Below are positions 8,914 through 40,331 of a stretch of DNA of 43,552 nt, piece by piece; position 1 is the stretch's first letter; the number at the start of each line of letters is the position of its first letter. Both the position numbers and the translations under genes were made by a program. The DNA comes from a virus: positions 1 through 43,552 of the IMG/VR virus record IMGVR_UViG_3300005264_000012, one strand, 5' to 3'. The notes below the pieces were generated by a model, which saw only the letters and a list, made by a program, of their open reading frames with translations, was not told where the DNA came from and ran no database searches.

Positions 8914-8983
8914 TTTTTTAAAAGAAAATTAGGGTATTCACAGATATGCTTGCTATCATTAACTATTTTTCCACGTCAACCCC
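8914..8983 (+). repeat. Upstream regulatory repeat, copy 1 (of 2)
   Basis: About 70 bp immediately before the -35 box of P1 aligns without gaps to 10236-10305 before P2. Shared blocks include a T-run plus AAAAGAAAA, then AGATATRCTTGCTAYC, then ATTAACTATTTT, then ACGTYAACCCC. Conservation well beyond the promoter core suggests an activator or repressor site, or a recently duplicated promoter region. Basis: direct comparison of the two stretches. Confidence 0.75.
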
Positions 8984-9012
8984 TTGACAAGATCAAATTA
9001 ATAGTATATAAT
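8984..9012 (+). promoter_or_regulatory. Early promoter P1 (TTGACA-17-TATAAT)
   Basis: Perfect sigma-70 consensus: TTGACA at 8984-8989, a 17-bp spacer and TATAAT at 9007-9012. The -35 box is the right arm of a perfect inverted repeat GTCAA-CCCC-TTGAC (8975-8988), a likely operator. The -10 box ends 33 bp before the ATG at 9046, so the leader would be about 25 nt. Confidence 0.93.
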
Positions 9013-9045
9013 CTTATTAATAATTTAATTAATAAGAAACAAGTT

Positions 9046-9390
9046 ATGAAAGACATCCAAAAAAAACTAAAAGAATCCAAGTTTTGGAGTGCTCAATATC
9101 AGAGTTTTGATGCTCGAAGCTCTGAGGCAGAGAAATTCTTAAAAGATTTAAGTTTAAAAACTGAATTTAAGTTTGGGAAAGAGGAAGGTATAGGGGTGAC
9201 GGCTTTTGAGGGTTATTTCGGGGATGATTCAGGATATAAGGGGAATCTTGACAATGCAAAAGTATATTCGGGGAAGGTTCCAACATTGCTTAATATCGTT
9301 AAAATACTATCCGAAGAGGAGATGGACCTGTTAAGAGAGCAATCTCTAGCCGAGAAGGCGGAGAAAGAGCAAAGAAGAAGATTAGGGTGA
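9046..9390 (+). CDS. Unknown early protein, 114 aa (first gene under P1)
   Basis: Not recognised. A charged, soluble protein with 'FWSAQYQSFDARSSEAEKF' near the N-terminus, a glycine-rich middle ('GYFGDDSGYKGNLDNAKVY') and a helical, highly charged C-terminus ('EEEMDLLREQSLAEKAEKE'). The ATG at 9046 is chosen because it follows P1 directly. The frame extends further upstream only by running through the promoter and the end of the tail gene. The leader is pure A/T plus AAGAAACAAGTT, with no Shine-Dalgarno. A terminator follows at 9508, so it is probably a one-gene early transcript, the sort of position where host-takeover proteins are found (inference). Confidence 0.8.
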   Translation: MKDIQKKLKESKFWSAQYQSFDARSSEAEKFLKDLSLKTEFKFGKEEGIGVTAFEGYFGDDSGYKGNLDNAKVYSGKVPTLLNIVKILSEEEMDLLREQSLAEKAEKEQRRRLG

Positions 9391-9800
9391 ATTAAATTTT
9401 TAATTTTACTTCTTTTAGGAAATAAGTTATAATAAACAATGTTAAAAATAAATAAAACATACAATTTTTCAAAAAAGATGTGTAGGCAGTACAAATCTTT
9501 AACATGCAAAAAGAACCTTTCGGGGTTCTTTTTGTTTGTATTGGGGACATTAGCATGCCAGAGTTCACAAACCCAGACGGAAACTCAAGCGTCATAAAAT
9601 AAAATGATTGTGAGAAAGGTGGGGTGAAAATAATGAGCCATACCGCAAATTTTCATTTCAAAAACGTTAAGGATTAATAGTTTATGCACTAAGACTACCT
9701 ACTTCTGGACGTAAGGACATAGGACCAGTTTATTAAGTTAGTGAGCTTAAATCTCGAATATAGAATCGATAAAGATTGATACAATTGCTTTGCATGGATT
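9391..9800. other. 410-bp stretch without a convincing gene
   Basis: Contains the terminator at 9508-9535 and only very short ORFs (for example 9555-9602 and 9633-9677, 15 and 14 codons). I see no tRNA cloverleaf, strong promoter or long inverted repeat after the terminator. It could hold a small RNA, an origin or debris from the degenerate HNH gene next to it. Confidence 0.5.
9508..9535 (+). terminator. Rho-independent terminator after the P1 gene
   Basis: AAAAAGAACC (9508-9517), six-base loop, GGTTCTTTTT (9524-9533), so the stem ends in a T-run followed by TGTTTG. Ends the P1 transcript about 120 bp after the stop codon. Confidence 0.9.
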
Positions 9801-10049
9801 ATGATAAAGATAATAATTGCAATAGTTTCCATTAATGATCCATTCATTAAAGGGGATCTATTGATAAGCAACCCGCAAATAATGATAAAATTAAATGAGA
9901 AACAAAAAACAATACTGCAACAAAACCTAAATCGATTAGGCGCTGAAACCATGAAAGATATTGTAATATTATGCAAAATTTGTCATTCTAGGTATCATAG
10001 AGGATTAATAGAGCCAAAACAACTCTTGTGGATTATTAATAACTGTTGA
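9801..10049 (+). pseudogene. Degenerate HNH-endonuclease-like ORF, 82 codons
   Basis: The C-terminal half resembles the end of small phage HNH nucleases: 'LNRLGAETMKDIVILCKICH' followed by 'SRYHRG', matching the usual LGNE-(D)-LxxLC-xxCH-xxYH layout. The position where such proteins carry the catalytic His-His is occupied by Gln-Gln ('TILQQNLNRLG'), and the N-terminal CxxC zinc motif is absent. I therefore read it as an inactivated or decaying HNH gene, although a short repurposed protein is possible. No promoter or Shine-Dalgarno precedes it, and a terminator follows at 10108. Confidence 0.45.
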
Positions 10050-10107
10050 AAACTTAAGTCCTAAATGCTAAAATAAATTGCATACGACATGCTAAAATAT
10101 TCTTACT

Positions 10108-10137
10108 ACAAAGAGGGACCTTCGGGTCTCTTTTTGT
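10108..10137 (+). terminator. Terminator with TTCG tetraloop
   Basis: ACAAAGAGGGACC (10108-10120), loop TTCG, GGTCTCTTTTTGT (10125-10137). The stem pairs fully if G-U is allowed. The C(UUCG)G loop and the T-run are typical of strong intrinsic terminators. Confidence 0.92.
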
Positions 10138-10212
10138 ATTTATAAGACAACCCCTCTAGGAAGAAGCCCTAAATCCCTGTGCTAAAGTTCAGAACATGCT
10201 TTGTCAACTAAA

Positions 10213-10234
10213 GGCACCCACAAGGGACTTGAAC
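10213..10234 (-). other. Short segment resembling a tRNA 3' end (minus strand)
   Basis: On the minus strand this reads GTTCAAGTCCCTTGTGGGTGCC, like a T-loop followed by a 3' acceptor strand. There is no matching T-stem or 5' half nearby, so it is not a tRNA gene. Phage att sites often carry such fragments, but no integrase is present. It may be a relic or chance. Confidence 0.2.
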
Positions 10235-10235
10235 T

Positions 10236-10305
10236 TTTTTTAAAAGAAAATGGAAGATTTTGTAGATATACTTGCTACCATTAACTATTTTCTTACGTTA
10301 ACCCC
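10236..10305 (+). repeat. Upstream regulatory repeat, copy 2 (of 2)
   Basis: Aligns without gaps to 8914-8983, ending at the same distance from the -35 box. The two copies share the T-run/AAAAGAAAA block, the TTGCTAYCATTAACTATTTT block and ACGTYAACCCC, and differ mainly in a 14-bp variable middle. Confidence 0.75.
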
Positions 10306-10334
10306 TTGACAAAATCTCATTACTAGTATATAAT
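10306..10334 (+). promoter_or_regulatory. Early promoter P2 (TTGACA-17-TATAAT)
   Basis: TTGACA at 10306-10311, 17-bp spacer, TATAAT at 10329-10334. The operator-like repeat is GTTAA-CCCC-TTGAC (one mismatch from P1). The -10 box ends 33 bp before the ATG at 10368, the same spacing as P1. Confidence 0.93.
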
Positions 10335-10367
10335 ATTATTAATAAATTAATTATTAATAAATAAATT

Positions 10368-10646
10368 ATGAGAAAACATAGAGATGAATTAGAGGGATTA
10401 GTTGTTGATTATTTAGCAAATGGGGTTGATGCAGGCCAAATTATAGAACTTATAGGCAAAGAAAATAGTGAGGATATATTAATGATATTAGAGGGAGCTG
10501 AAAAAGAATTAGATAATATGGGATTATTGTTGGAAAATGGTTTATTAATTATTGATACAGAGAAAATGACGGATTGGCAAGACGAGCAGTCGGGTAAAAT
10601 TATTAATAAGTATGTGGAGAAGTTAATTCTTCTTGTTAGTTTTTAA
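10368..10646 (+). CDS. Unknown early protein, 92 aa
   Basis: Not recognised. An acidic, helix-rich soluble protein ('LVVDYLANGVDAGQIIELIG', 'MILEGAEKELDNMGLLLENG'). First gene under P2. The start is fixed by the promoter and by a pure A/T leader that ends exactly at the ATG. Short candidate genes follow to 11245, so P2 probably drives a run of small accessory proteins. Confidence 0.78.
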   Translation: MRKHRDELEGLVVDYLANGVDAGQIIELIGKENSEDILMILEGAEKELDNMGLLLENGLLIIDTEKMTDWQDEQSGKIINKYVEKLILLVSF

Positions 10647-10673
10647 TAATTTATTTTAATTTTTAATTATTAT

Positions 10674-10766
10674 AGGAGAAGAGGTGATTCTAAAACCAAA
10701 GAAGCAGAAGAGAAATTTGAAAAAGAAATAGAAAAGTTAGTTGAAGAGGCAAAGGCAGTTTTATAA
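10674..10766 (+). pseudogene. Small ORF lacking a start codon, possible frameshifted remnant
   Basis: The frame from AGG at 10674 to TAA at 10766 gives a strongly coding-like helical peptide ('KTKEAEEKFEKEIEKLVEEA', then KAVL) but has no ATG, GTG or TTG. A GTG at 10684, with AGGAG just upstream, starts a different frame that stops after 15 codons. One indel in the A-rich stretch after this GTG would join the two. Either a decayed gene or a sequence error. Confidence 0.35.
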
Positions 10767-10796
10767 TTTTACAAATAATTTAATTAATTAGAAAGA

Positions 10797-10955
10797 ATGA
10801 TGTATCAAATCATAAGTAATTACCGAAATGGTAAATTCAGTGCAAGGGTGGAGCCACAAGATTATTGGTGTGACCCTATAGGAGGAGAGGAGATTATGGG
10901 GTCTCATATGTCACTTGAGGAGGCAAAAGAAGAAGTTGCAAGCTATAACAGATAG
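10797..10955 (+). CDS. Small unknown protein, 52 aa
   Basis: Not recognised. The peptide begins 'MMYQIISNYRNGKFSARVEP' and continues with 'WCDPIGGEEIMGSHMSLEEA'. Such compact proteins with a YR.GKF..RV opening look like small phage hypotheticals. It follows an A/T leader (TAATTTAATTAATTAG) like the other early genes. Two adjacent ATGs (10797, 10800) could serve as start. A 13-codon ORF with the same kind of leader follows at 11021-11062 and may or may not be translated. Confidence 0.55.
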   Translation: MMYQIISNYRNGKFSARVEPQDYWCDPIGGEEIMGSHMSLEEAKEEVASYNR

Positions 10956-11110
10956 ATTCTCAACATTGTCCATCTACAGGGTGGATAGTGATTGGTAATT
11001 TAATTTATTTGAAAAAAAATATGAATAAGGAAGTGAAAGAAATGAGGAAGTGGAGGACTTAATCTCTCTTATTAATTTAAAAAATTATTATAATTGTAAA
11101 AGAAACAATC

Positions 11111-11245
11111 ATGCAAAATGATCAAACAAAAAAACTTATTGAAGATCTTTTTGGAGAGGATGCAAAGGAATATTTGAAGGGGGATTTACAGGTGGTGGAG
11201 GAATTTCTATTTGTTAAAAATCAATATAAAAATGAACAGTTTTAA
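11111..11245 (+). CDS. Small unknown protein, 44 aa
   Basis: Not recognised. An acidic helical peptide ('QTKKLIEDLFGEDAKEYLKG') with 'EEFLFVKNQYK' at the end. Leader A/T-rich plus AGAAACAATC, similar to that of the gene at 9046. Ends 31 bp before the -35 box of P3, so it closes the P2 unit. Confidence 0.5.
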   Translation: MQNDQTKKLIEDLFGEDAKEYLKGDLQVVEEFLFVKNQYKNEQF

Positions 11246-11276
11246 TAAAAATGAGATAATAGTGGCCGTCAACCCC

Positions 11277-11305
11277 TTGACAAGATTGGGCCAATAGTAT
11301 ATAAT
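11277..11305 (+). promoter_or_regulatory. Early promoter P3 (TTGACA-17-TATAAT)
   Basis: TTGACA at 11277-11282, 17-bp spacer, TATAAT at 11300-11305. Carries the perfect inverted repeat GTCAA-CCCC-TTGAC (11268-11281), as in P1, but lacks the 70-bp upstream repeat. The -10 box ends 32 bp before the ATG at 11338. Drives the replication genes. Confidence 0.93.
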
Positions 11306-11337
11306 CATTTTAGTAATAGTTTTTAGTATTTTAAGTT

Positions 11338-11382
11338 ATGTCAAAATCAACACATGCGCAAGTGATGAGGGATAAGTTTTAA
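11338..11382 (+). CDS. 14-codon leader ORF downstream of P3
   Basis: Starts exactly where a P3 gene should start (same leader type and promoter spacing) but stops after 14 codons, two bases before the ATG of the next gene in another frame. It may be a translated leader coupling ribosomes to the downstream membrane protein, or the remnant of a longer gene. Confidence 0.35.
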   Translation: MSKSTHAQVMRDKF

Positions 11383-11384
11383 TC

Positions 11385-11543
11385 ATGAATAGGAAAGATA
11401 GAGTCAAGATCAATAAAATAAAGGGGCGTATAAGAAGAATATATGACATATATGGAGTAGTGGGATGGGAAAAACAACTGTCCATTGGTTGGTTGGGATT
11501 TGGTATAGTGATTGTTGTAAGTATAATACTTTGTTTGAATTGA
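11385..11543 (+). CDS. Small membrane protein, 52 aa
   Basis: Not recognised. A strongly basic N-terminal half ('NRKDRVKINKIKGRIRRIY') is followed by one membrane helix ('LSIGWLGFGIVIVVSIILCL') at about residues 32-51. The positive-inside rule predicts a cytoplasmic N-terminus. Expressed early from P3, ahead of the replication genes. Single-helix early proteins of this sort include superinfection-exclusion factors and small inhibitors, but nothing here points to one role. Confidence 0.6.
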   Translation: MNRKDRVKINKIKGRIRRIYDIYGVVGWEKQLSIGWLGFGIVIVVSIILCLN

Positions 11544-11622
11544 ATAGAGTATTATACCCACACTTTGGATTTACAATTTCTGAGGTGTTGGTTTAGTATT
11601 TTATTTTTTTATTTATTAAATC

Positions 11623-11856
11623 ATGGAGAAGAAAAAACCATTAGAACGTGATTCAGATTATATTGGGACTGCGGTTTATTACGGTGAGGACGAAAGACTG
11701 ATCAGTTATGTTACATATAAGGTTCGGATTTTCAATGTCAAGGAAGGACGTATAGCAATTAAAATTATAGAGGGTAGTCGAGAGGGGATTGTATTACAGT
11801 ATGATAATATTGGTGTTTTTTTAAATAATTGGAAGAATATTGAAAGTAAATCTTAA
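11623..11856 (+). CDS. Unknown early protein, 77 aa
   Basis: Not recognised. A compact beta-rich sequence ('DYIGTAVYYGEDERLISYVT', 'GRIAIKIIEGSREGIVLQYD') that could be a small SH3- or OB-like barrel (weak inference). Preceded by a long A/T leader with no Shine-Dalgarno. Sits between the small membrane protein and the replication initiator in the P3 unit. Confidence 0.7.
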   Translation: MEKKKPLERDSDYIGTAVYYGEDERLISYVTYKVRIFNVKEGRIAIKIIEGSREGIVLQYDNIGVFLNNWKNIESKS

Positions 11857-11878
11857 TTAATTGATTAATTAAATAATT

Positions 11879-12346
11879 ATGTTATCCAAAACAGAGGTGG
11901 GAATTCTACGGCTTAAATTACAGCGTCTGTATCCTATGAAGGACAGGGATCAATTTAGTGAGACGTCTCTTGCGGAGGAGTTTGATTTGGCAGTTGAGGA
12001 AATGGTTGACTCTATGAGTAAATCACAAAAGAAAAAATATGAGGGAGAGTTCATATTGAAATATAAATTTGACGAATTCTGGGATCTTTACCCAAGAAAA
12101 AAGAGTAAGGGAATTTCAAAAAAGAAATTTGTTCAAAAAATAAATGAGTCAGAAAATCCAGAAAAAGCTTTTCAGATAATTATGAAAGCATTAAGTGATA
12201 TCGTAAATTATGAATGGAAGAATAAAGATCCACAATATATTCCTCATGCGAGTACATGGTTGAATCAAGAGCGATGGAATGATGAGATTGAGATGGGCAA
12301 ATCTAATTTTGATGGAGAGAGAAATGAAGGATATAATGAATGGTAG
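11879..12346 (+). CDS. Phage replication initiator (replisome organiser-like), 155 aa
   Basis: Probably binds the phage origin and recruits the helicase loader encoded next. The C-terminal half carries the signature of many phage replication proteins: 'FDEFWDLYPRKKSKG' followed by 'YIPHASTWLNQERWND' at about residues 63-140. The first 60 residues are helical and may form the DNA-binding part. Such genes often contain the origin within the coding sequence, but I could not identify clear iterons here. It overlaps the loader gene downstream, the classic initiator-loader pair. The family is a confident match by motif; the exact DNA site is unknown. Confidence 0.82.
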   Translation: MLSKTEVGILRLKLQRLYPMKDRDQFSETSLAEEFDLAVEEMVDSMSKSQKKKYEGEFILKYKFDEFWDLYPRKKSKGISKKKFVQKINESENPEKAFQIIMKALSDIVNYEWKNKDPQYIPHASTWLNQERWNDEIEMGKSNFDGERNEGYNEW

Positions 12347-12881
12347 TATAAGTTCACATCAGCAAGTTGTTGAAGTATTAGCAGCAAACTTCTCAATTCC
12401 TCAAAGATTCGTAGGGGTCAATGGCAATGTTGAGCTAGGAAAAACATTGCTCGATAAAGGTTTATTAATTACAGGAGGAGTAGGAACGGGAAAAACTCAT
12501 CTATTAGCACAAGCTATAATAGGGATTGCAGATGTAAAAGACTTGGGAAGTGGAATGAAGATACGGTTTCGAACTTATGGGGAAGTAGCTAGAATGATTA
12601 GAGGTTCAATTGGCAATGGATCATATCAACAAGTTTATAGGCAGCTAGCAACTGAGGATATCTTAATTATGGATGATCTTGGAACTGAGAATAATACAGA
12701 ATTTATGGTGGAATTTTTATATAATATAATTAATGATCGTTATAATAAGATGAAGCCAATTGGAATTACAACCAACCTGGGATCAAGGGATATTATTAAC
12801 ATTTATGGGGAGAGAATAGCTTCACGATTAAATCATATGTGCAGAGTTATCAAGCTAAATGGGGGGGATAGAAGGAAATGA
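12324..12881 (+). CDS. DnaC/IstB-like AAA+ helicase loader
   Basis: 185 aa with this start. Walker A 'GGVGTGKTH' at about residues 52-60, Walker B 'ILIMDDLG' at about 113-120, and a C-terminal 'TTNLGSRDI...GERIASRLNH' sensor/arginine-finger region typical of DnaC-type loaders. It should load the host replicative helicase onto phage DNA, since the phage has no helicase of its own. The ATG at 12324 is preferred because GGAGAG lies 5-10 bp upstream. The frame also has ATGs at 12279, 12312 and 12336. Overlaps the initiator gene by 23 bp. Confidence 0.88.
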   Translation: MKDIMNGSISSHQQVVEVLAANFSIPQRFVGVNGNVELGKTLLDKGLLITGGVGTGKTHLLAQAIIGIADVKDLGSGMKIRFRTYGEVARMIRGSIGNGSYQQVYRQLATEDILIMDDLGTENNTEFMVEFLYNIINDRYNKMKPIGITTNLGSRDIINIYGERIASRLNHMCRVIKLNGGDRRK

Positions 12882-12901
12882 TAAAAAAATACGTAAACCC
12901 C

Positions 12902-12930
12902 TTGACAAGATCAATAAAGTAGTATATAAT
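12902..12930 (+). promoter_or_regulatory. Early promoter P4 (TTGACA-17-TATAAT)
   Basis: TTGACA at 12902-12907, 17-bp spacer, TATAAT at 12925-12930. Operator-like repeat GTAAA-CCCC-TTGAC with one mismatch. The -10 box ends 32 bp before the ATG at 12963. Drives the recombination ATPase unit. Confidence 0.93.
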
Positions 12931-12962
12931 ATACTTATAGATTTAATTCTTAGTAAAAGATA

Positions 12963-13085
12963 ATGACAACAATTTTTAAAGAAAGTGGAAAAAAATATTC
13001 TTATTCATTTAAAGATGAAAAAGAGGCTTGGGAATGGTGTTCTAATCAGAATGTTTTTGACAAAATTGTTGAATGGAAATTGTAA
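12963..13085 (+). CDS. Small unknown protein, 40 aa (first gene under P4)
   Basis: Not recognised. 'TTIFKESGKKYSYSFKDEKE' followed by 'AWEWCSNQNVFDKIVEWKL', a compact alpha/beta peptide rich in aromatics. It sits at the fixed promoter-to-ATG distance seen for P1-P4, which is the main support. Stops 36 bp before the next start. Confidence 0.65.
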   Translation: MTTIFKESGKKYSYSFKDEKEAWEWCSNQNVFDKIVEWKL

Positions 13086-13120
13086 TTTTAAATTATTTTA
13101 TTTTATATGTATGTAAAACT

Positions 13121-14035
13121 ATGATGGCAAAAGGAAAGCAAAAGGCACTGGTGAAGCAAATCAGTGGAGAGGAATTAATAAAGACATTTGGAGCCTCGAC
13201 GGGAAGCAATGTCTCAAAATCAGGGGGTGGATATCCATATATCAACATCCTACAATCTGATAAGCAGGCGGAGAAATTTAGTGATCCTGAGAATATTAAT
13301 ATGAAGGATGATTATGGAAAAATGTATATTAGGAGTCGAAACTCTAATTCAACAAAGGATTTAGTATCAGAAATTAAGGGTACTATTATTAAGGAACAAA
13401 AAGGGAGTGAATTATGGGTGAATGGAGAGCAAGTTTACGCCAAAAGTAATGATACTGCTTCACAGGAAGAGAAGGACAGAGTATTTGGGACGCACAGTGC
13501 TTACCCAACTAATGTGATTAAAATGTTGATTAAATTAGAAGTACCCCAGACACTGGGAAATGGTGAGGAGTATCAGTTTGTGATGGTCACTATTAAAGGA
13601 AGTTCATGGGGTGGATATTTTGATTTAGTTGAAGCTCAAAAAAAATTGGTATTAGAAAGTAATGAAATTGGTGGGGCATTAGATGCAATTCATGTATGTT
13701 TTTGGAATTTGACATTGAAAACCACAAAGATGGAAAAGAATGTAAATGGACAGAAAAGAAAATGGTATGCTTTTGAATTCGGCGTTGAATTGAATTCAAT
13801 AGATAAAGCAAAGGGGTTTATAGGTGATATGGGGGAATCTGAATCAATTGATTTGATACGGATTGGATCTACTAACACAGTGGCGGAGGCTGAGGTGGTG
13901 AATCAATCAAGCGATGCAGAGGTTGAGGGTGCATTTAGTCAGGCGGGGGCGGGAGGTGCTACTCCAAGACAATCTAAAGCTAACGCAGAAGAGGATTATG
14001 AAGAATATAAAGTGATGTCTCAAGACAAGCTTTAA
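13121..14035 (+). CDS. Unknown protein with acidic tail, possible ssDNA-binding role
   Basis: 304 aa from the ATG at 13121 (a second ATG follows at 13124). The frame opens at 13073, but that would overlap the small gene upstream and skip the A/T leader. The core is beta-rich ('GYPYINILQSDKQAEKF', 'YQFVMVTIKGSSWGGYFD', 'KWYAFEFGVELNSIDKAKG') and the last 50 residues are low-complexity, ending acidic ('NAEEDYEEYKVMSQDKL'). An acidic disordered tail plus position directly before an SbcC-like ATPase fits a single-strand binding or recombination mediator protein, but I do not recognise the family. That role is inference from context only. Confidence 0.7.
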   Translation: MMAKGKQKALVKQISGEELIKTFGASTGSNVSKSGGGYPYINILQSDKQAEKFSDPENINMKDDYGKMYIRSRNSNSTKDLVSEIKGTIIKEQKGSELWVNGEQVYAKSNDTASQEEKDRVFGTHSAYPTNVIKMLIKLEVPQTLGNGEEYQFVMVTIKGSSWGGYFDLVEAQKKLVLESNEIGGALDAIHVCFWNLTLKTTKMEKNVNGQKRKWYAFEFGVELNSIDKAKGFIGDMGESESIDLIRIGSTNTVAEAEVVNQSSDAEVEGAFSQAGAGGATPRQSKANAEEDYEEYKVMSQDKL

Positions 14036-14057
14036 TTTAATTTTAATGTAATTTTTA

Positions 14058-15836
14058 ATGAAAATTAAAGGGATAACCCTTACAAATTTTAAAAGCTGTA
14101 GGAGTGGAGAATATAAATTTGGGAAATATAATATAGTTACAGGGGCAAACGGGGTAGGTAAATCAAGTATTCTCGAGGGGATTGTATATGTTTTGACTAA
14201 TAAAACCTCAATGGGGACAACGGGAGTTGATAGGTATATCACAAATGGGAAGTCTAAAATGAGAGTAGATCTTGATATTGAGGGAATTGGAATGGTTACT
14301 CGTGGGATTAATAATGGTAAGGGAGTATTGATGGTGAATGGAGATCAGGTTACTAATAGTAGTTTTGAATCTCGTTATTGTGTAGAGATTAATTATCTTA
14401 TGGGTGCGATATGTCCTGAATATTGGAAATCGATGCTATATGGGGATCGCAGAAAATTAGTAATGGGTCTATTGCCTGAGGTGGATAGGAATGAAGTATT
14501 TGTTAAAATGTTTGATCGTGAGGATTTGCGAGAAAGGTTCCAAATGGAATCTTATGCGGAAGTCAATGCTTCAGTTCGGTCTTTGGAGGGAACTATCCAG
14601 GATAAAAATGGGCGTGTGGCTCAAATTATATCTGAAATTGAGGAAGTAAAGAACGTTGAGGGGGATGAAGTGGAATTTTCTAAGTTAGAGAAGTATCAAG
14701 AGTTGAAGGAGAAAATAGAAAATGAGTCGGTAATTGTTAAGGAATTAGAAAAACTAAAAGTAGAAAAGGAGGAAGAACTACAGATTGATAAAAAGGTTGA
14801 AAAGGCAGTTCAAGATTTATCTGAAAATCAGGAGGAATTGGAGGTACATAGAAGAGAATCAACTGCACTGGAGAATCTAAAAGTGGAACTTGAATTGGGA
14901 ATTGAGAAGACTGGAACGGTGGATAAGATAGAGGCTGTGCTGGACATTACAAATCAAAGGTTAATCCAAATAAGGAAAAATTTGGATAAATGTCCTGTGT
15001 GTGATAAAAAATATAATCCTTCTAAAATGATTAAGGATCTTGAAAGGGAGATAAAAGATTTTGAGATTAAGCTTCAAAAGGCAAAAGGTCAGAGGGATGA
15101 ATTACAAGCAATGGAACTAAAGATTGCTAGCATTGATCATAACATAAGAAAAGCACAAGAGATCATTGATCAATCTGAGAATATAATTGAGTTGGCACAA
15201 GATAGAAAGGAAAAATCTTTGGATCCCGATATAGCTAAATTAACTAAAAGGTTAATTACAGATAATGATCGAGGGGAATATAGTGATCTTGATAAACAAT
15301 ATACAAAATTCAAAGTAGATCAAGGGATTATGAAAGATAAGCAAAAAAGATTAAAGAGATTGAAAGAAGAGGGGCAAGAGAATAAAAAGCAAATAGAGTC
15401 TGATAAAGTAGAGCTAACCAATTTAAAAGTATTATCAGAGGCGTTATCACCTAAAGGGGTGGACGCTGAGATAATTAAAACAAAAACGAAAGTACTTGAG
15501 GGGTATATTGAGCGATATGCTAATGGTGTACGAATCGAAACAATTCAAGATTTAAAATCAGGAACAGGTGTAAAACAAGTATTCAATATAACAAAAATGG
15601 GGGTTAGTGAGAGTCAACTATCTACAGGGGAGAAGATGAAATTGGCAGTAGCATTCTCATTGGGAATTCAAGATTTAGTTAAAAAGCAATTACATAAAAA
15701 TATAAAATTCTTGATGATTGATGATGCTTCATTAATTACTGATACAGATGTATTCTTAAAGGTTATTGGAGATCGGCAATTAATCGTTGTGAAAAATACA
15801 GACAGTAAGGAGGTTGACATTAAAGTACAGTCATAA
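14058..15836 (+). CDS. SbcC/Rad50/RecN-type recombination ATPase
   Basis: 592 aa. Walker A 'GANGVGKSS' at about residues 31-39, a first coiled coil to about 300, a zinc-hook-like 'CPVCDKKY' at about 313, a second coiled coil to about 450, the ABC signature 'LSTGEKM' at about 522 and Walker B 'KFLMIDDAS' at about 550. This is the SMC-like ATPase layout used for DNA end processing and repair. Phage versions usually partner an SbcD/gp47 nuclease. None is visible here, but a RecB-type nuclease is encoded at 19102. Pure A/T leader. Shorter than cellular SbcC (about 1000 aa), as usual in phages. Confidence 0.88.
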   Translation: MKIKGITLTNFKSCRSGEYKFGKYNIVTGANGVGKSSILEGIVYVLTNKTSMGTTGVDRYITNGKSKMRVDLDIEGIGMVTRGINNGKGVLMVNGDQVTNSSFESRYCVEINYLMGAICPEYWKSMLYGDRRKLVMGLLPEVDRNEVFVKMFDREDLRERFQMESYAEVNASVRSLEGTIQDKNGRVAQIISEIEEVKNVEGDEVEFSKLEKYQELKEKIENESVIVKELEKLKVEKEEELQIDKKVEKAVQDLSENQEELEVHRRESTALENLKVELELGIEKTGTVDKIEAVLDITNQRLIQIRKNLDKCPVCDKKYNPSKMIKDLEREIKDFEIKLQKAKGQRDELQAMELKIASIDHNIRKAQEIIDQSENIIELAQDRKEKSLDPDIAKLTKRLITDNDRGEYSDLDKQYTKFKVDQGIMKDKQKRLKRLKEEGQENKKQIESDKVELTNLKVLSEALSPKGVDAEIIKTKTKVLEGYIERYANGVRIETIQDLKSGTGVKQVFNITKMGVSESQLSTGEKMKLAVAFSLGIQDLVKKQLHKNIKFLMIDDASLITDTDVFLKVIGDRQLIVVKNTDSKEVDIKVQS

Positions 15837-15865
15837 TTTATATATTAATATAAGGAAACAAAAAA

Positions 15866-16183
15866 ATGAAGAAAGAAAAGAAAAAGAAAGAAGATGTGTT
15901 TTCTATTCAGCAGGTTGCTGATTTACACAAAGACATTTCTTATGATGTTATCTATGAGCAGGCAAGGGCAGGTAAGCTTAGTATTATTACGAAAAAGCAA
16001 GGAAAGAAGACTATGTATTTCTTTCATGGGGATTTGGTTAGACGTTCTCTAATTGATGGATTTAAAGTTCTTAAACTTGATTATGAGGGATTGATGTTAC
16101 CACGGGAGTTGCCTCGAAAAGAGGTGGTGCAGGATTTGGGGGAAATCCCAGGAAGTGGTAAAAATGTAGTAAGTAATTATTAA
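15866..16183 (+). CDS. HTH-domain protein, 105 aa
   Basis: Lysine-rich start, then a winged-helix/excisionase-like HTH segment 'FSIQQVADLHKDISYDVIYE' followed by 'QARAGKLSIITKKQGKKTMY', which matches the helix-turn-helix plus wing pattern of MerR/Xis-type DNA-binding proteins. It could be a regulator of the early promoters or a DNA architectural protein. No integrase is present, so a true excisionase role is unlikely. Leader AT-rich with AAGGAAAC about 15 bp upstream. Confidence 0.68.
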   Translation: MKKEKKKKEDVFSIQQVADLHKDISYDVIYEQARAGKLSIITKKQGKKTMYFFHGDLVRRSLIDGFKVLKLDYEGLMLPRELPRKEVVQDLGEIPGSGKNVVSNY

Positions 16184-16205
16184 TTATTAATTATTAATCA
16201 AAATA

Positions 16206-16268
16206 ATGCTAAGGACTGAATATAATATACCAGAGGCATATATTTTGCACAAGTATATTCATGTTTAA
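16206..16268 (+). CDS. 20-codon ORF, first of a coupled micro-cluster
   Basis: Short ORF after an A/T leader of the early type. Its TAA overlaps the ATG of the next small ORF (TAATG). Translation is plausible only because of that coupling; the peptide itself shows no motif. Confidence 0.3.
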   Translation: MLRTEYNIPEAYILHKYIHV

Positions 16269-16363
16269 TGCGGAGTTGTGATAATTGTTTAGCTTATTTT
16301 TTTCAAAGGTGTTATGAAGAACCTCAGAAAGGGGATGCAGCAGTTGGTCAAAGGAGAGGCTAG
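16268..16363 (+). CDS. 31-aa Cys-containing small protein
   Basis: Begins in a TAATG overlap. Contains 'MRSCDNCLAYFFQRC', so C4, C7 and C15 could form part of a metal site. Stops with TAG one base before the ATG at 16365. The coupling on both sides and the CxxC argue for a real tiny gene, but evidence is limited. Confidence 0.4.
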   Translation: MRSCDNCLAYFFQRCYEEPQKGDAAVGQRRG

Positions 16364-16364
16364 G

Positions 16365-16706
16365 ATGTCTTCCCATAGAAGGGTGATGGACATTTTGCAA
16401 GGGGAAAGGGATTATGTAGATTTACCCGACCCAATAAAAGAATGGGAAGAGTTTAACAGTTATCTAAGAGAAAAAAATTTGGTCTTTTGTGAGAATGAAT
16501 ATTGGATATTGATTAAAAATAGTTATATTGATGATCAGCATGTATTGTTTTGTAAATTGCCTTTCTCTTCAGTTTATGAAATTAATAATGACATGATGAA
16601 GGCAATGTTAGATATCTTAGGCCCATACGGTTGTTATCATTGGTATATTAATGCCTGTAAAGACAGATCGGTTCCTAATAGATTACATATACATATAAAG
16701 TTATGA
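16365..16706 (+). CDS. HIT-like (histidine triad) protein with altered motif, 113 aa
   Basis: The C-terminal half follows the HIT pattern: 'DDQHVLFCKLPFSSVYEI', then 'YINACKDRSVPNRLHIHIKL', close to the N-x-G-x(5)-V-x-HLHxHxx core of HIT hydrolases/transferases. The first triad His is replaced (NRL for HL) and the last is absent, so catalysis is doubtful. The ATG at 16365 is favoured by a strong Shine-Dalgarno (AAAGGAGAGG) and by coupling to the ORF ending at 16363. An in-frame ATG at 16314 would add 17 basic residues. Possibly a nucleotide-binding protein. Function not assigned. Confidence 0.58.
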   Translation: MSSHRRVMDILQGERDYVDLPDPIKEWEEFNSYLREKNLVFCENEYWILIKNSYIDDQHVLFCKLPFSSVYEINNDMMKAMLDILGPYGCYHWYINACKDRSVPNRLHIHIKL

Positions 16707-16882
16707 ATGACACAGTTGTTAATTTTTGGTTATAGAATAATGAAAAGATTCATACTCGGGCTAATGCTAAAATATATAACTTTCGAGATAATAGGTCTAG
16801 ACCAGGGGGGGATGGAAAGACGATGCTATACCGTGCGCTAAGGAAGGTGTGTGGGAGAATGCAGAAGATCAGGTTGGAATAA
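16703..16882 (+). pseudogene. 60-codon ORF interrupted by one in-frame TAG
   Basis: The ATG overlaps the stop of the HIT-like gene (ATGA). The frame gives ten residues, a TAG at 16733-16735, then 48 more sense codons ('GGDGKTMLYRALRKVCGRMQ' near the end) to TAA at 16882. The coupling and the coding-like second half suggest a real gene broken by one nonsense change, or one read through at the amber codon. TAG is a normal stop elsewhere (for example 8846, 17676, 34786), so general recoding is excluded. Confidence 0.45.
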
Positions 16883-16901
16883 TTGTTAAATGGAGGAGTA
16901 G

Positions 16902-16961
16902 ATGAATAGTTATCAATTTAAATGGATAGGTAGACATTATCCTTCTCTATTCGGTTGTTAG
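16902..16961 (+). CDS. 19-codon ORF with strong Shine-Dalgarno
   Basis: GGAGGAG sits 4 bp before the ATG, the best ribosome site in the early block, yet the ORF 'MNSYQFKWIGRHYPSLFGC' is only 19 codons. Could be a micro-protein or a leader peptide ahead of the pentapeptide gene. Confidence 0.35.
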   Translation: MNSYQFKWIGRHYPSLFGC

Positions 16962-16992
16962 TATTTTAATTATTAGTTATTAATTATTAATT

Positions 16993-17676
16993 ATGAATAA
17001 TTCGGGAAACTGGAATTCGGGACACAGAAATTCGGGAAACTGGAATTCGGGACACAGAAATTCGGGACACAGAGATTCGGGACACTTGAATTCGGGAAAC
17101 AGAAATTCGGGAGACTTGAATTCGGGAAACTGGAATTCGGGACACAGAAATTCGGGACACTTGAATTCGGGAGACAGAAATTCGGGACACTGGAATTCGG
17201 GAGACTGGAATTCGGGAGACTGGAATTCGGGAAACTGGAATTCGGGAAACAGAAATTCGGGACACTTGAATTCGAATCAACCGACGGTAAGAATGTTTAA
17301 CCGAGAGACAGGGATGACTCATAGTGAGGTCGAAAAATTAATCCCTAAATTCTTTTATTTTGATGCGATAGAATGGGTTCAGGAAGAGGTTATGACCGAT
17401 GAGGAAAAAAGAGTATATCCATCATATAAAACCACTGGTGGCTACCTTAAGGATGTCGCCTACAAAGAGGCATGGCGGAAAGCGTGGAATAAAGCTGGGG
17501 AAGATGATAGGAAAAAGGTTCTTAAGCTACCGAATTGGGATAATGATATATTTAAAAGAATCACGGGGATTGATATTGAAAAGGAGCTAAAACCAAAACG
17601 TACAATTGAAATTGATGGTAAGACCATAAAACTTTCCAAAGAGAGTTATGCTAATCTCAAGAAACAGTTGGAGTAG
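16993..17676 (+). CDS. Pentapeptide-repeat protein with conserved C-terminal domain
   Basis: 227 aa. Residues 3-92 are 18 tandem pentapeptides of form N-S-G-[N/H/D]-[W/R/L], expected to fold as a right-handed quadrilateral beta-helix (related to the NxGxx repeats of Pentapeptide_2). Residues about 95-227 form a separate domain: 'VRMFNRETGMTHSEVEKL', 'SYKTTGGYLKDVAYKEAWRK' and 'LPNWDNDIFKRITGIDIE'. I recognise this pairing from hypothetical proteins of other phages, but no function is known to me. Some pentapeptide proteins mimic DNA and inhibit gyrase; here the helix surface would carry W, R, H and D, so that role is speculative. Leader is pure A/T. Confidence 0.82.
   Translation: MNNSGNWNSGHRNSGNWNSGHRNSGHRDSGHLNSGNRNSGDLNSGNWNSGHRNSGHLNSGDRNSGHWNSGDWNSGDWNSGNWNSGNRNSGHLNSNQPTVRMFNRETGMTHSEVEKLIPKFFYFDAIEWVQEEVMTDEEKRVYPSYKTTGGYLKDVAYKEAWRKAWNKAGEDDRKKVLKLPNWDNDIFKRITGIDIEKELKPKRTIEIDGKTIKLSKESYANLKKQLE
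16999..17268 (+). repeat. 18 x 15-bp tandem repeat within the pentapeptide gene
   Basis: Each unit is AATTCGGGA plus [A/C/G]AC plus TGG, AGA or TTG (one unit starts GAT). The first nine bases are otherwise invariant. Fourth residue: H 8, N 6, D 4. Fifth residue: W 7, R 7, L 4. Units ending in G create 11 EcoRI (GAATTC) sites in 270 bp. Confidence 0.97.
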
Positions 17677-17686
17677 TATTTTAGTT

Positions 17687-17800
17687 GTGACAACAACAGA
17701 AAATACACAGAGGTATAGCAACTCAAGGGGAGAGCAAACCAACTATAAACCTGTCCGACTAGATGATGATGATGCAGGTTCAGACACAAATTCCAATTAA
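17687..17800 (+). CDS. Small acidic-tailed protein, 37 aa, GTG start
   Basis: Frame from GTG at 17687 gives 'TTTENTQRYSNSRGEQTNYK' then 'PVRLDDDDAGSDTNSN'. The sequence is polar and probably disordered. Support is modest: it fills an otherwise empty 150-bp gap, ends just before the A/T leader of the next gene and has a plausible composition. No Shine-Dalgarno. Confidence 0.4.
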   Translation: MTTTENTQRYSNSRGEQTNYKPVRLDDDDAGSDTNSN

Positions 17801-17830
17801 TTTATTTTATTTATTATTTATTTATTCGCA

Positions 17831-18295
17831 ATGAGTAAAGGACAAAAAGTTATAGAATTATGGCAAGAACTCGAATCCATAATAGGGGGCAAAAGTCTTA
17901 TTGAAGAACTTAGAAGCATGCCAATGTCTGAATTAGACCTTAAATTACAAAGTGATGATTTAAAACAAATCCTTACTAGAATTCCAGAATATTTGAGATT
18001 GAAAAACATGGCAAGATTTGAGAAAATGAGACAGTTTAAGGAGATCAAAAGAAAATTAAAAGAAACGGATGGTTTCATTATGTTATCATTAGATAACAAT
18101 GAATATAAAAACAAGGAGATGAGGGAGGCTGCATTGTATACGAATGAAGCGCACATGGCTCAGGCTGAAAGAATGGATAAATTGGAAGTGGAATTAGAGG
18201 GATTACAAGAAGAATACTGGATCTATAAAACATTAGAAAGTAACCTAAAGTCTTTAGCGGATTTGAAGGTGCAGGAATTGAGATCTTTGGGGTAA
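17831..18295 (+). CDS. Coiled-coil early protein, 154 aa
   Basis: Not recognised. Almost entirely helical, with heptad-like charge patterns: 'RFEKMRQFKEIKRKLKET' in the middle and 'AERMDKLEVELEGLQEEYW' near residue 120. No Cys or membrane segment. Last gene of the P4 unit, ending just before P5. Could be an accessory factor for recombination or DNA binding. Leader is A/T only (TTTATTTATTATTTATTTATTC type). Confidence 0.72.
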   Translation: MSKGQKVIELWQELESIIGGKSLIEELRSMPMSELDLKLQSDDLKQILTRIPEYLRLKNMARFEKMRQFKEIKRKLKETDGFIMLSLDNNEYKNKEMREAALYTNEAHMAQAERMDKLEVELEGLQEEYWIYKTLESNLKSLADLKVQELRSLG

Positions 18296-18305
18296 TGTTT
18301 ACCCC

Positions 18306-18334
18306 TTGACACAGGGTGTATATTATTGTATAAT
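18306..18334 (+). promoter_or_regulatory. Early promoter P5 (TTGACA-17-TATAAT)
   Basis: TTGACA at 18306-18311, 17-bp spacer, TATAAT at 18329-18334. CCCC precedes the -35 box, as in P1-P4. The inverted repeat is weaker (GTTTA-CCCC-TTGAC, two mismatches). The -10 box ends 26 bp before the ATG at 18361. Confidence 0.9.
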
Positions 18335-18360: not shown

Positions 18361-18618
18361 ATGGAAGATTTGGAATTAAATGGCAATAAATTGAAAGAGG
18401 TTAATGGTAAGAGGTTGTCTACCTATGAGGCTAGTAGGTTGCTAGATATTAGTCGTAAGCGTGTTTGGGAACGAATTAAAGTGTTTGTTGAAACAGAGGG
18501 GAAGCGAGGGATGGGTGGTATTTATGATGAACATATGAACCAATACTACACTACATTTGATGATGTTGTAAAATATGATGAACATCGAAGGGCTCTGTAT
18601 CCAGGTATGTTTAATTAA
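18361..18618 (+). CDS. HTH DNA-binding protein, 85 aa (first gene under P5)
   Basis: Contains 'LSTYEASRLLDISRKRVWER' at about residues 19-38, a good helix-turn-helix of the MerR/excisionase type, followed by a possible wing. A small DNA-binding protein placed first after an operator-bearing promoter is a natural candidate for the regulator that reads the GTCAA-N4-TTGAC repeats, though this is inference. Another HTH protein is encoded at 15866. A/T-rich leader with no Shine-Dalgarno. Confidence 0.72.
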   Translation: MEDLELNGNKLKEVNGKRLSTYEASRLLDISRKRVWERIKVFVETEGKRGMGGIYDEHMNQYYTTFDDVVKYDEHRRALYPGMFN

Positions 18619-34859: not shown

Positions 34860-35816
34860 ATGGCTACACAACAGCTACCAAAAGAGGTCCGTGGGGGAAT
34901 GCGTAGAATGATGATGGCTATTGATAGTATATACGAACATCTGACAGATGATTTATTAAAAGTTATTATTAAAATCAAATCTGAGGCTGATTTAGAATTC
35001 TATAAACCCGAACTTCACTCAATTATTACACAAGCTGGTAAGGACACAGAATATTATATTGGCACATATTCTAAGTTTAGTGCGGATTTGGCTTTGACAC
35101 GGAATTTAAGAGATTTCAAACAACTTCGAATTGATACAAAATTACCCGATTCATGGGGAGATTATCTAAAAATAATGAATAATATGGTCCGTAGGGATAT
35201 GACATATTATACATTGCATCGGTGGAACGATGGGAAAAACTTGACTGATAGAATCAAAACCATTATTCACGGAACTGAACAAACCGTTGAAAGTTTGATC
35301 AAGTTGGGGATAAGTGAGGGTGAAGATGCAATATCGCTTGCTAAGAGGATTGCACAATATATTCATCCTGATAGACGAAGTAAGGTGGTAGCTCCATGGT
35401 CAATTATACGAAGAGAGAAAGGTTTACCAGTATCTTTTGTGCCTAAGAAGGTTCCTGCGGGGGCGGTAGATTTTAATGCTTATAGAATAGCTAGAACAGA
35501 AGTTGCTCAACATTACCGCTGGATGACTATTGATTCTTCAAAGAATTTGGATTTTGTAGTGGGTTGGCAATGGATGTTGAGTGGTTCTCATCCTGTTCCT
35601 GACATTTGTGATGATTGGGCTGGGTATGATGAGGGATATGGACCAGGGGTCTATACTGACCCAATAGCAATCTCACTGTTAGGCCATCCTTTTTGTCTAT
35701 GTTTTGTTCAAACAATAACGGCATTTCATAGACAATTTAAAGAATTTTATAAAAAAGCTAGAGAGGAAATGAATCTTTCGGATGGGGTTTGGGGTGCGAT
35801 TGGATACAACAGTTGA
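34860..35816 (+). CDS. MuF-like minor head protein
   Basis: 318 aa. The C-terminal part carries the MuF/SPP1 gp7 signature: 'AYRIARTEVAQHYRWMTID' followed by 'GWQWMLSGSHPVPDICDDWA' and 'LGHPFCLCFVQ', including the HPxCxC motif. Minor capsid proteins of this family associate with the portal and enter the prohead. Normally the gene follows the portal; here about 7 kb of fibre and lysis genes lie between. A 73-bp gap upstream holds a 7-bp inverted repeat (TTGATAG at 34796, CTATCAA at 34821). Confidence 0.9.
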   Translation: MATQQLPKEVRGGMRRMMMAIDSIYEHLTDDLLKVIIKIKSEADLEFYKPELHSIITQAGKDTEYYIGTYSKFSADLALTRNLRDFKQLRIDTKLPDSWGDYLKIMNNMVRRDMTYYTLHRWNDGKNLTDRIKTIIHGTEQTVESLIKLGISEGEDAISLAKRIAQYIHPDRRSKVVAPWSIIRREKGLPVSFVPKKVPAGAVDFNAYRIARTEVAQHYRWMTIDSSKNLDFVVGWQWMLSGSHPVPDICDDWAGYDEGYGPGVYTDPIAISLLGHPFCLCFVQTITAFHRQFKEFYKKAREEMNLSDGVWGAIGYNS

Positions 35817-39209: not shown

Positions 39210-40331
39210 GTGAAAGATATCATTGTTAATTGGTATGGAACACCTTCTCAAGGGCAAGGCTATTCGGGGCAGAATGAATTATTAGCAATAGCACTGGATC
39301 ATATAGAAGGATTTGATGTTCATTTCATTTCGCCATCAAAGGTTATTATGAAGAACTTAACCTCTGATGGAAAAAGATTAATTAATAAATCATTTGTATA
39401 TGGAGATGTAGGTATAACATTGGGTTTTCCCAATTCCTTTTCATCTATAATCAATCGACATAAAATAGGTTTCACGATGTTTGAGACGGATAAATTACCA
39501 AATGGTGTTAATTCTGGACAGCCGAATGAATGGTCTGGTATTACAGGACGAGCATCTGACATGTGCAACCTTATGGATGAGTTGTGGGTTCCATGCCAAC
39601 ATAATGTTGACTTGTTTAAAAGAGAAGGAGTCAAAATGCCAATTAAAAAAATGAACCTGGGTTATGATATTCGAATGTATCAAGATGAAAGTGAACGTAG
39701 AGCTAAAACACGGAAAAACCGTCCTTTTACATTTCTTATGACAGGGACATTGACAAGTAGAAAAAACCCGGGATATGTTATAGCAGCATTTATGGAATTA
39801 TTCATGAATGAAGGTCCTGAAAAGGTTAAGTTAATATTGAAAACAACTAGTGGAACATTGAGCCACTTTATTTTTCCAAAGGGGATTAATATTGAAGTGA
39901 TTGATAAATATGTAACCTCACAAGAGATGAATAGATTGTATGCAGAATCAGATTGCTTCGTTTTTCCTTCAAGAGGAGAGGGATATGGAGTTCCTCCCGT
40001 AGAGGCGATGGCAACAGGCTTACCAGCGATTATTGCAGACAATACAGGGATGAGTGAATTTGCTAATGATGAATATAACTACCCGATAAGAAAACATAAT
40101 AAAGTTCCAAGTGGTAGATTTCCTCAAAATTGGGGTGATGTTGGAAGTTGGTATGATCCAGACTTTAAGGAATTAAAGCAATTGATGAAACATGTTTATA
40201 ATAATCAAAAGGAAGGGATAGACAAGGGGATGAAAGCTGCAAAATGGGTTAGGGCTAATTATACAATGGAGAATACGGCCCGAAAAATGGCTAAAGATAT
40301 TCGTTTATTAATAGAAAAAAATGACCAATGA
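39210..40331 (+). CDS. GT-B glycosyltransferase (GT4-like) in the head gene cluster
   Basis: 373 aa, GTG start after a short A/T leader. The C-terminal half has the GT4/GT1 signature: 'TFLMTGTLTSRKNPGYVIAA' (donor-domain start) and 'SRGEGYGVPPVEAMATGLPA' (about residues 254-273), the E-x7-E nucleotide-sugar motif. The N-terminal half is an acceptor domain ('TPSQGQGYSGQNELLAIALD'). Lying between the major capsid gene and the connector genes, it is co-transcribed with virion proteins. It could glycosylate capsid or fibre subunits, or host surface polymers (inference). Overlaps the connector gene by 11 bp. Confidence 0.9.
   Translation: MKDIIVNWYGTPSQGQGYSGQNELLAIALDHIEGFDVHFISPSKVIMKNLTSDGKRLINKSFVYGDVGITLGFPNSFSSIINRHKIGFTMFETDKLPNGVNSGQPNEWSGITGRASDMCNLMDELWVPCQHNVDLFKREGVKMPIKKMNLGYDIRMYQDESERRAKTRKNRPFTFLMTGTLTSRKNPGYVIAAFMELFMNEGPEKVKLILKTTSGTLSHFIFPKGINIEVIDKYVTSQEMNRLYAESDCFVFPSRGEGYGVPPVEAMATGLPAIIADNTGMSEFANDEYNYPIRKHNKVPSGRFPQNWGDVGSWYDPDFKELKQLMKHVYNNQKEGIDKGMKAAKWVRANYTMENTARKMAKDIRLLIEKNDQ

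Follow-up and report, generated by a model that had tools for sequence, protein, structure and literature searches.

Whether five similar promoter-like sites in the early region of a phage genome represent a regulon under the control of a dedicated phage protein, or a set of strong sites for the host polymerase, is the question raised by this locus. The window, a 43.5 kb virus record of 43,552 nucleotides, contains five perfect CCCC-TTGACA-N17-TATAAT sites on the + strand of the replication or early region (P1 to P5, with -35 boxes starting at 8984, 10306, 11277, 12902 and 18306). The first-pass annotation regarded these as five matched early promoters carrying an operator-like inverted repeat over the -35 box, governed either by one dimeric regulator or by modification of host RNA polymerase. 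The view that these sites are strong, mutually matched promoters of the early region stands up well; the proposal of one dimeric regulator fares poorly.

A reiterated promoter-like element in the replication module

All five sites were located as described, with sigma70-type hexamers matching perfectly at 17 bp spacing in every case, and a recount reproduces the distances of 33, 33, 32, 32 and 26 bp from the -10 box to the first ATG. Only 0.14 TTGACA-N15-19-TATAAT sites would be expected by chance, as opposed to the five seen, and none of 100 shuffles gave five; no perfect TTGACA-N17-TATAAT with CCCC is present elsewhere in the contig. The five are less uniform than the term 'matched' suggests. 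P1 to P4 are copies of a 39 bp element, CGTNAACCCCTTGACAARATN8TAGTATATAAT, while the overlap of P5 with them is limited to GTNNACCCC, both hexamers and the spacing. A position weight matrix built from P1 to P4 and scored across the contig gives these sites 51, 47, 50 and 48 bits respectively, P5 20 bits and the next best site 12 bits; hence P1 to P4 are one tight family, of which P5 is an outlying relative. Nor are the sites independent, because P1 and P2 belong to a single 136 bp duplication with 82% identity between its copies.

Table 1. Coordinates in the window of the promoters and neighbouring features
Feature	Position	Strand	Remarks
Duplicated segment with P1, leader and start codon	8914..9049	+	136 bp, 82% identical to 10236-10371 (P2 copy)
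P1	8974..9012	+	39 bp element, CGTCAACCCC-TTGACA-N17-TATAAT; perfect GTCAA/TTGAC dyad at 8975-8988
First gene after P1	9046..9390	+	114 aa, no family match
Intrinsic terminator closing P1 cassette	9506..9535	+	13 pairs, UUCG-type loop, U tail; -19 kcal/mol, z -5.6
Second intrinsic terminator, upstream of P2	10108..10142	+	UUCG-type; -18.1 kcal/mol, z -6.2
P2	10296..10334	+	39 bp element, upstream arm GTTAA; inside 136 bp duplication of P1 region
First gene after P2	10368..10646	+	92 aa, no convincing family match
P3	11267..11305	+	39 bp element, perfect dyad at 11268-11281
DnaC-like helicase loader	12279..12881	+	Early-region marker
P4	12892..12930	+	39 bp element, upstream arm GTAAA
First gene after P4	12963..13085	+	40 aa, without assigned function
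SbcC-like ATPase	14058..15836	+	Early-region marker
HTH candidate	15866..16183	+	105 aa; HTH_17 sub-threshold, E=0.037
Perfect palindrome GGGGTAA-TGT-TTACCCC	18289..18305		Abuts P5 -35 box
P5	18297..18334	+	Outlier, GTTTACCCC-TTGACA-N17-TATAAT; spacer differs from P1-P4
First gene after P5, weak HTH candidate	18361..18618	+	85 aa; HTH_23 sub-threshold, E=0.11

All five sites fall in the replication module, which also encodes a PD-(D/E)XK exonuclease and a VRR-NUC resolvase, and none in the structural module, the structural genes being located elsewhere. The first ATG downstream of P3 opens a frame of only 14 aa. Shine-Dalgarno-like motifs are depleted before starts (5/42, against a background of 22%). 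The tape-measure gene appears to be split over the contig ends (1-97 and 43520-43552), and the record is probably an almost complete, circularly permuted genome. Positions 9391-10142 are mostly non-coding, with a weak promoter-like site upstream of each of the two UUCG-type terminators (9405-9433 and 10046-10074); these units are possible small RNAs, and the interval has no match in Rfam. Two further observations on gene content are a pentapeptide-repeat protein at 16993-17676, with a 15 bp tandem DNA repeat (NSGxx units) and matching phrog_14105, and a glycosyltransferase gene at 39210-40331, immediately downstream of the major capsid gene.

One explanation for the similarity of the promoters is that a promoter block was copied along with a small gene, leaving the shared upstream bases as functionless remnants of descent. 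The inclusion of the leader and start codon in the duplication of P1 and P2 fits such a history, as does the presence of two terminators between the two copies, but P3 and P4 are little alike beyond the 39 bp block. When P1, P3 and P4 are compared, there are two to five matches per ten bases upstream of the element, which is near background, nine to ten across its outer parts, and only three to six in the mid-spacer, although P1 and P4 retain some likeness in the AT-rich leader outside the element. Divergence in the mid-spacer next to well-kept edges means that conservation of the flank and spacer edges does not simply reflect recent copying. The pattern favours functional maintenance of the outer bases over a residue of duplication, and descent alone is judged an unlikely explanation.

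The additional conserved bases, CGTNAACCCC upstream of the -35 box, ARAT after it and TAGTA before the -10 box, are asymmetric about the -35 box and reach into the edges of the spacer. On the pattern of the sequence, P1 to P4, and the diverged P5, probably constitute a reiterated cassette of strong early promoters for the host sigma70 polymerase, with extra conserved contacts. Unmodified host RNA polymerase would most likely fire the set upon phage entry, starting five short transcription units across 9-18.3 kb, each with an AT-rich leader of about 20-27 nt (assuming initiation 6-7 nt past the -10 box) and without a Shine-Dalgarno sequence. Selection would keep the extra bases as points of contact, either for the polymerase or for one DNA-binding factor, and the imperfect dyad that they form with the -35 box would be incidental. 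Reiterated CCCC-TTGACA promoters without a dyad are also found in unrelated phages, with three copies in one contig (L072) and two in each of two others (L020 and L055).

The dyad over the -35 box and its candidate readers

The alternative is that the dyad is an operator, whereby a dimeric phage regulator would bind GTCAA-N4-TTGAC (centred at about -37.5, over the -35 box), exclude sigma region 4 and shut off early transcription, with mismatches weakening P2, P4 and P5. The annotated counts of mismatches to GTCAACCCCTTGAC (0, 1, 0, 1 and 2 for P1 to P5) are confirmed. None of the 89 other TTGAC sites in the contig has GTCAA at a spacer of 4, even allowing one mismatch, which makes a purely chance origin of the dyad unlikely, though its copies share ancestry or selection; at any spacer from 0 to 10, two of the 89 have it. 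The restriction of dyad sites to promoters, and the position of an HTH candidate as the gene driven by P5, would likewise be in keeping with an operator. However, GTCAA-CCCC-TTGAC is perfect in P1 and P3 only, rather than preserved across the sites as would be expected of a set of symmetric dimer operators. The upstream arm takes all the mismatches in P2, P4 and P5, since the downstream arm coincides with the -35 box, and P2 and P4 are altered at the same base. Moreover, the asymmetry of the conserved bases, and their extension into the spacer, mean that there are simpler readings than a symmetric dimer operator; the half-site centres, just 9 bp apart, would be close for a canonical HTH dimer; and the contig contains no free-standing dyad sites away from promoters. 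An operator thus appears unlikely, if still deserving of consideration, and the suggestion that graded mismatches set the timing of expression is speculation.

An arrangement of back-to-back divergent promoters, using the upstream arm, was considered and rejected: on the minus strand no -10 box with more than 4/6 matches is found at 15-19 bp. The left arm of the palindrome beside P5 contains the stop codon of the ORF at 17831-18295, and only two perfect repeats with 7 bp arms (at least 4 G/C per arm, loops of 0-10) exist in the contig. As an RNA hairpin the palindrome folds unremarkably (z -0.5).

The proteins starting at 15866 and 18361 had been put forward as candidate regulators of the HTH type. 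Their family matches fall below threshold, and the structure models of both are of low confidence and too poor for a fold search; both are tentative candidates. The proteins scanned included no recognisable CI-like repressor or integrase.

The other suggestion was a change in the polymerase itself. Alt modifies host RNA polymerase, favouring some T4 early promoters, and a phage-modified host enzyme could similarly favour P1 to P5. A consensus extending beyond the hexamers is likewise present in T4 early promoters (PMC2988021), but a scan of a subset of the early proteins, some without a family match, recognised no RNA polymerase, sigma factor or modifying enzyme. For one head-morphogenesis protein, at 34860-35816, the PHROG Bxa ADP-ribosyl transferase is a weaker, secondary match, its best being to head morphogenesis. 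Modification of the polymerase is consequently considered very improbable, and use of the unmodified enzyme is preferred.

Host context and occurrence of the motif elsewhere

Of 287 Patescibacteria genomes, 32 carry a relative of the terminase (best E 9e-31), as do 5 of the 150 genomes from the phylum to which a Ruminococcus belongs (best E 7e-24). These matches, together with the depletion of Shine-Dalgarno signals, make a host among the Patescibacteria likely. The TTGACA-17-TATAAT pair occurs in 249 of the 287 Patescibacteria genomes, and with CCCC upstream in 12; both CCCC and GTNAA precede the pair in one, which was chosen as a centre for having it. The first-pass caveat that the CCCC context could be the ordinary host promoter consensus thus finds no backing in the Patescibacteria, and would fall if the host does belong there. 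Because the context is rare in that group, the conserved upstream bases do not reflect a usual preference of its members, which leaves scope for a dedicated regulator. CCCC-TTGACA is frequent among phages and in some Clostridia, with eight sites in one Ruminococcus genome, such that the CCCC context appears to be a widespread preference in some lineages, of which the GTNAA arm is not part. The patescibacterial prophage-like regions around the terminase matches contain terminase and ParB-like homologues, with only one TTGACA-N16-18-TATAAT promoter among the 20 stretches read. A lookalike promoter in one Patescibacteria genome (L285), CCCCTTGACAAGAT...CTAGTATAAT, was discarded as having no GTNAA arm. 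A literature search on Patescibacteria promoters with TTGACA found no paper.

The exact 39 bp element has no match elsewhere in the viral or genome collections searched. The nearest terminase relatives (L328-L330; 47-49% identity) have little else in common with this phage, and their records contain no TTGACA-N16-18-TATAAT. Searches for relatives through SbcC, the portal protein and the promoter pattern returned none of use. A scan of genomes for GTNAACCCCTTGACA-N17-TATAAT gave 24 single matches, mostly in Clostridia and none reiterated, which in part represent one apparently conserved coding sequence.

In viral contigs, GTCAA accounts for 22 of the 31 GTNNA loci preceding CCCCTTGACA-17-TATAAT. 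Many of these loci are near-copies of each other; across distinct contexts the share is about 8 of 16, where column frequencies predict about 5%. This over-representation, an argument in favour of an operator, keeps that reading alive without establishing it. The form GTCAACCCC-TTGACA-17-TATAAT is seen in viral contigs L097, L146-L149, L151-L160, L162, L167-L169, L171, L173 and L175. Judging from translations of neighbouring genes, several of the contigs with GTCAA promoters look like marine T4-like phages. In L154 the promoter is followed by a gene that matches gp55, the late sigma factor, and in a named relative, phage C48C1 (OQ984149), the gp55 promoter is GTCAACCCCA-TTGACA, with a dyad spacer of 5 bp rather than 4, a point against an operator. 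That unrelated phages, this one and the marine T4-like ones among them, independently acquired GTCAA-N4/5-TTGAC over the -35 box as an operator, read either by a common class of regulator or through some property general to sigma region 4, seems improbable. A different perfect dyad, TGTCAAG-CCCC-CTTGACA, lies over the -35 boxes of three phage promoters (L010, L032 and L086), and another phage contig (L040) has, within about 400 bp, three CCCC-TTGACA promoters that are almost identical and share a 10 bp upstream flank.

Comparison with known systems

Reiterated early promoters are an already known arrangement and a common phage strategy, and as a regulatory principle the present set is ordinary. 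If real, it would be a compact set of early promoters in a phage of a probably uncultivated host group of ultrasmall bacteria, and the 39 bp element could mark related phages.

In Cluster A mycobacteriophages (L5/TipsytheTRex), a monomeric repressor acts at more than 20 asymmetric 13-mer operators and stoperators, many of which are intergenic and outside promoters (PMC9283540). One short motif repeated in the genome and tied to early promoters is common to both cases, but here the sites number only four to five and are confined to promoters, with neither a repressor nor an integrase recognised. The marine T4-like phages (L154 and C48C1) have the same dyad over the -35 box, at 17 bp from TATAAT in the contigs, but are unrelated to this phage and carry it as a single copy (within the 150 kb of C48C1 examined, where the dyad spacer is 5 bp), with a different spacer and leader. 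Intergenic repeats in halovirus HF2 carry promoters whose activity has been experimentally shown (PMC8707807); one repeated intergenic sequence would similarly serve as promoters here, with activity predicted from sequence, although HF2 is an archaeal virus.

T4 early promoters are sigma70 promoters with extra consensus beyond the hexamers (PMC2988021). They have a TGn extended -10, whereas P1 to P4 have GTA at -15 to -13; in addition, there are only four to five copies here, and the upstream CGTNAACCCC does not qualify as an A-rich UP element. What the two systems share is the reiteration, at early genes, of near-consensus promoters of the host type, with conserved bases beyond the -35 and -10 boxes.
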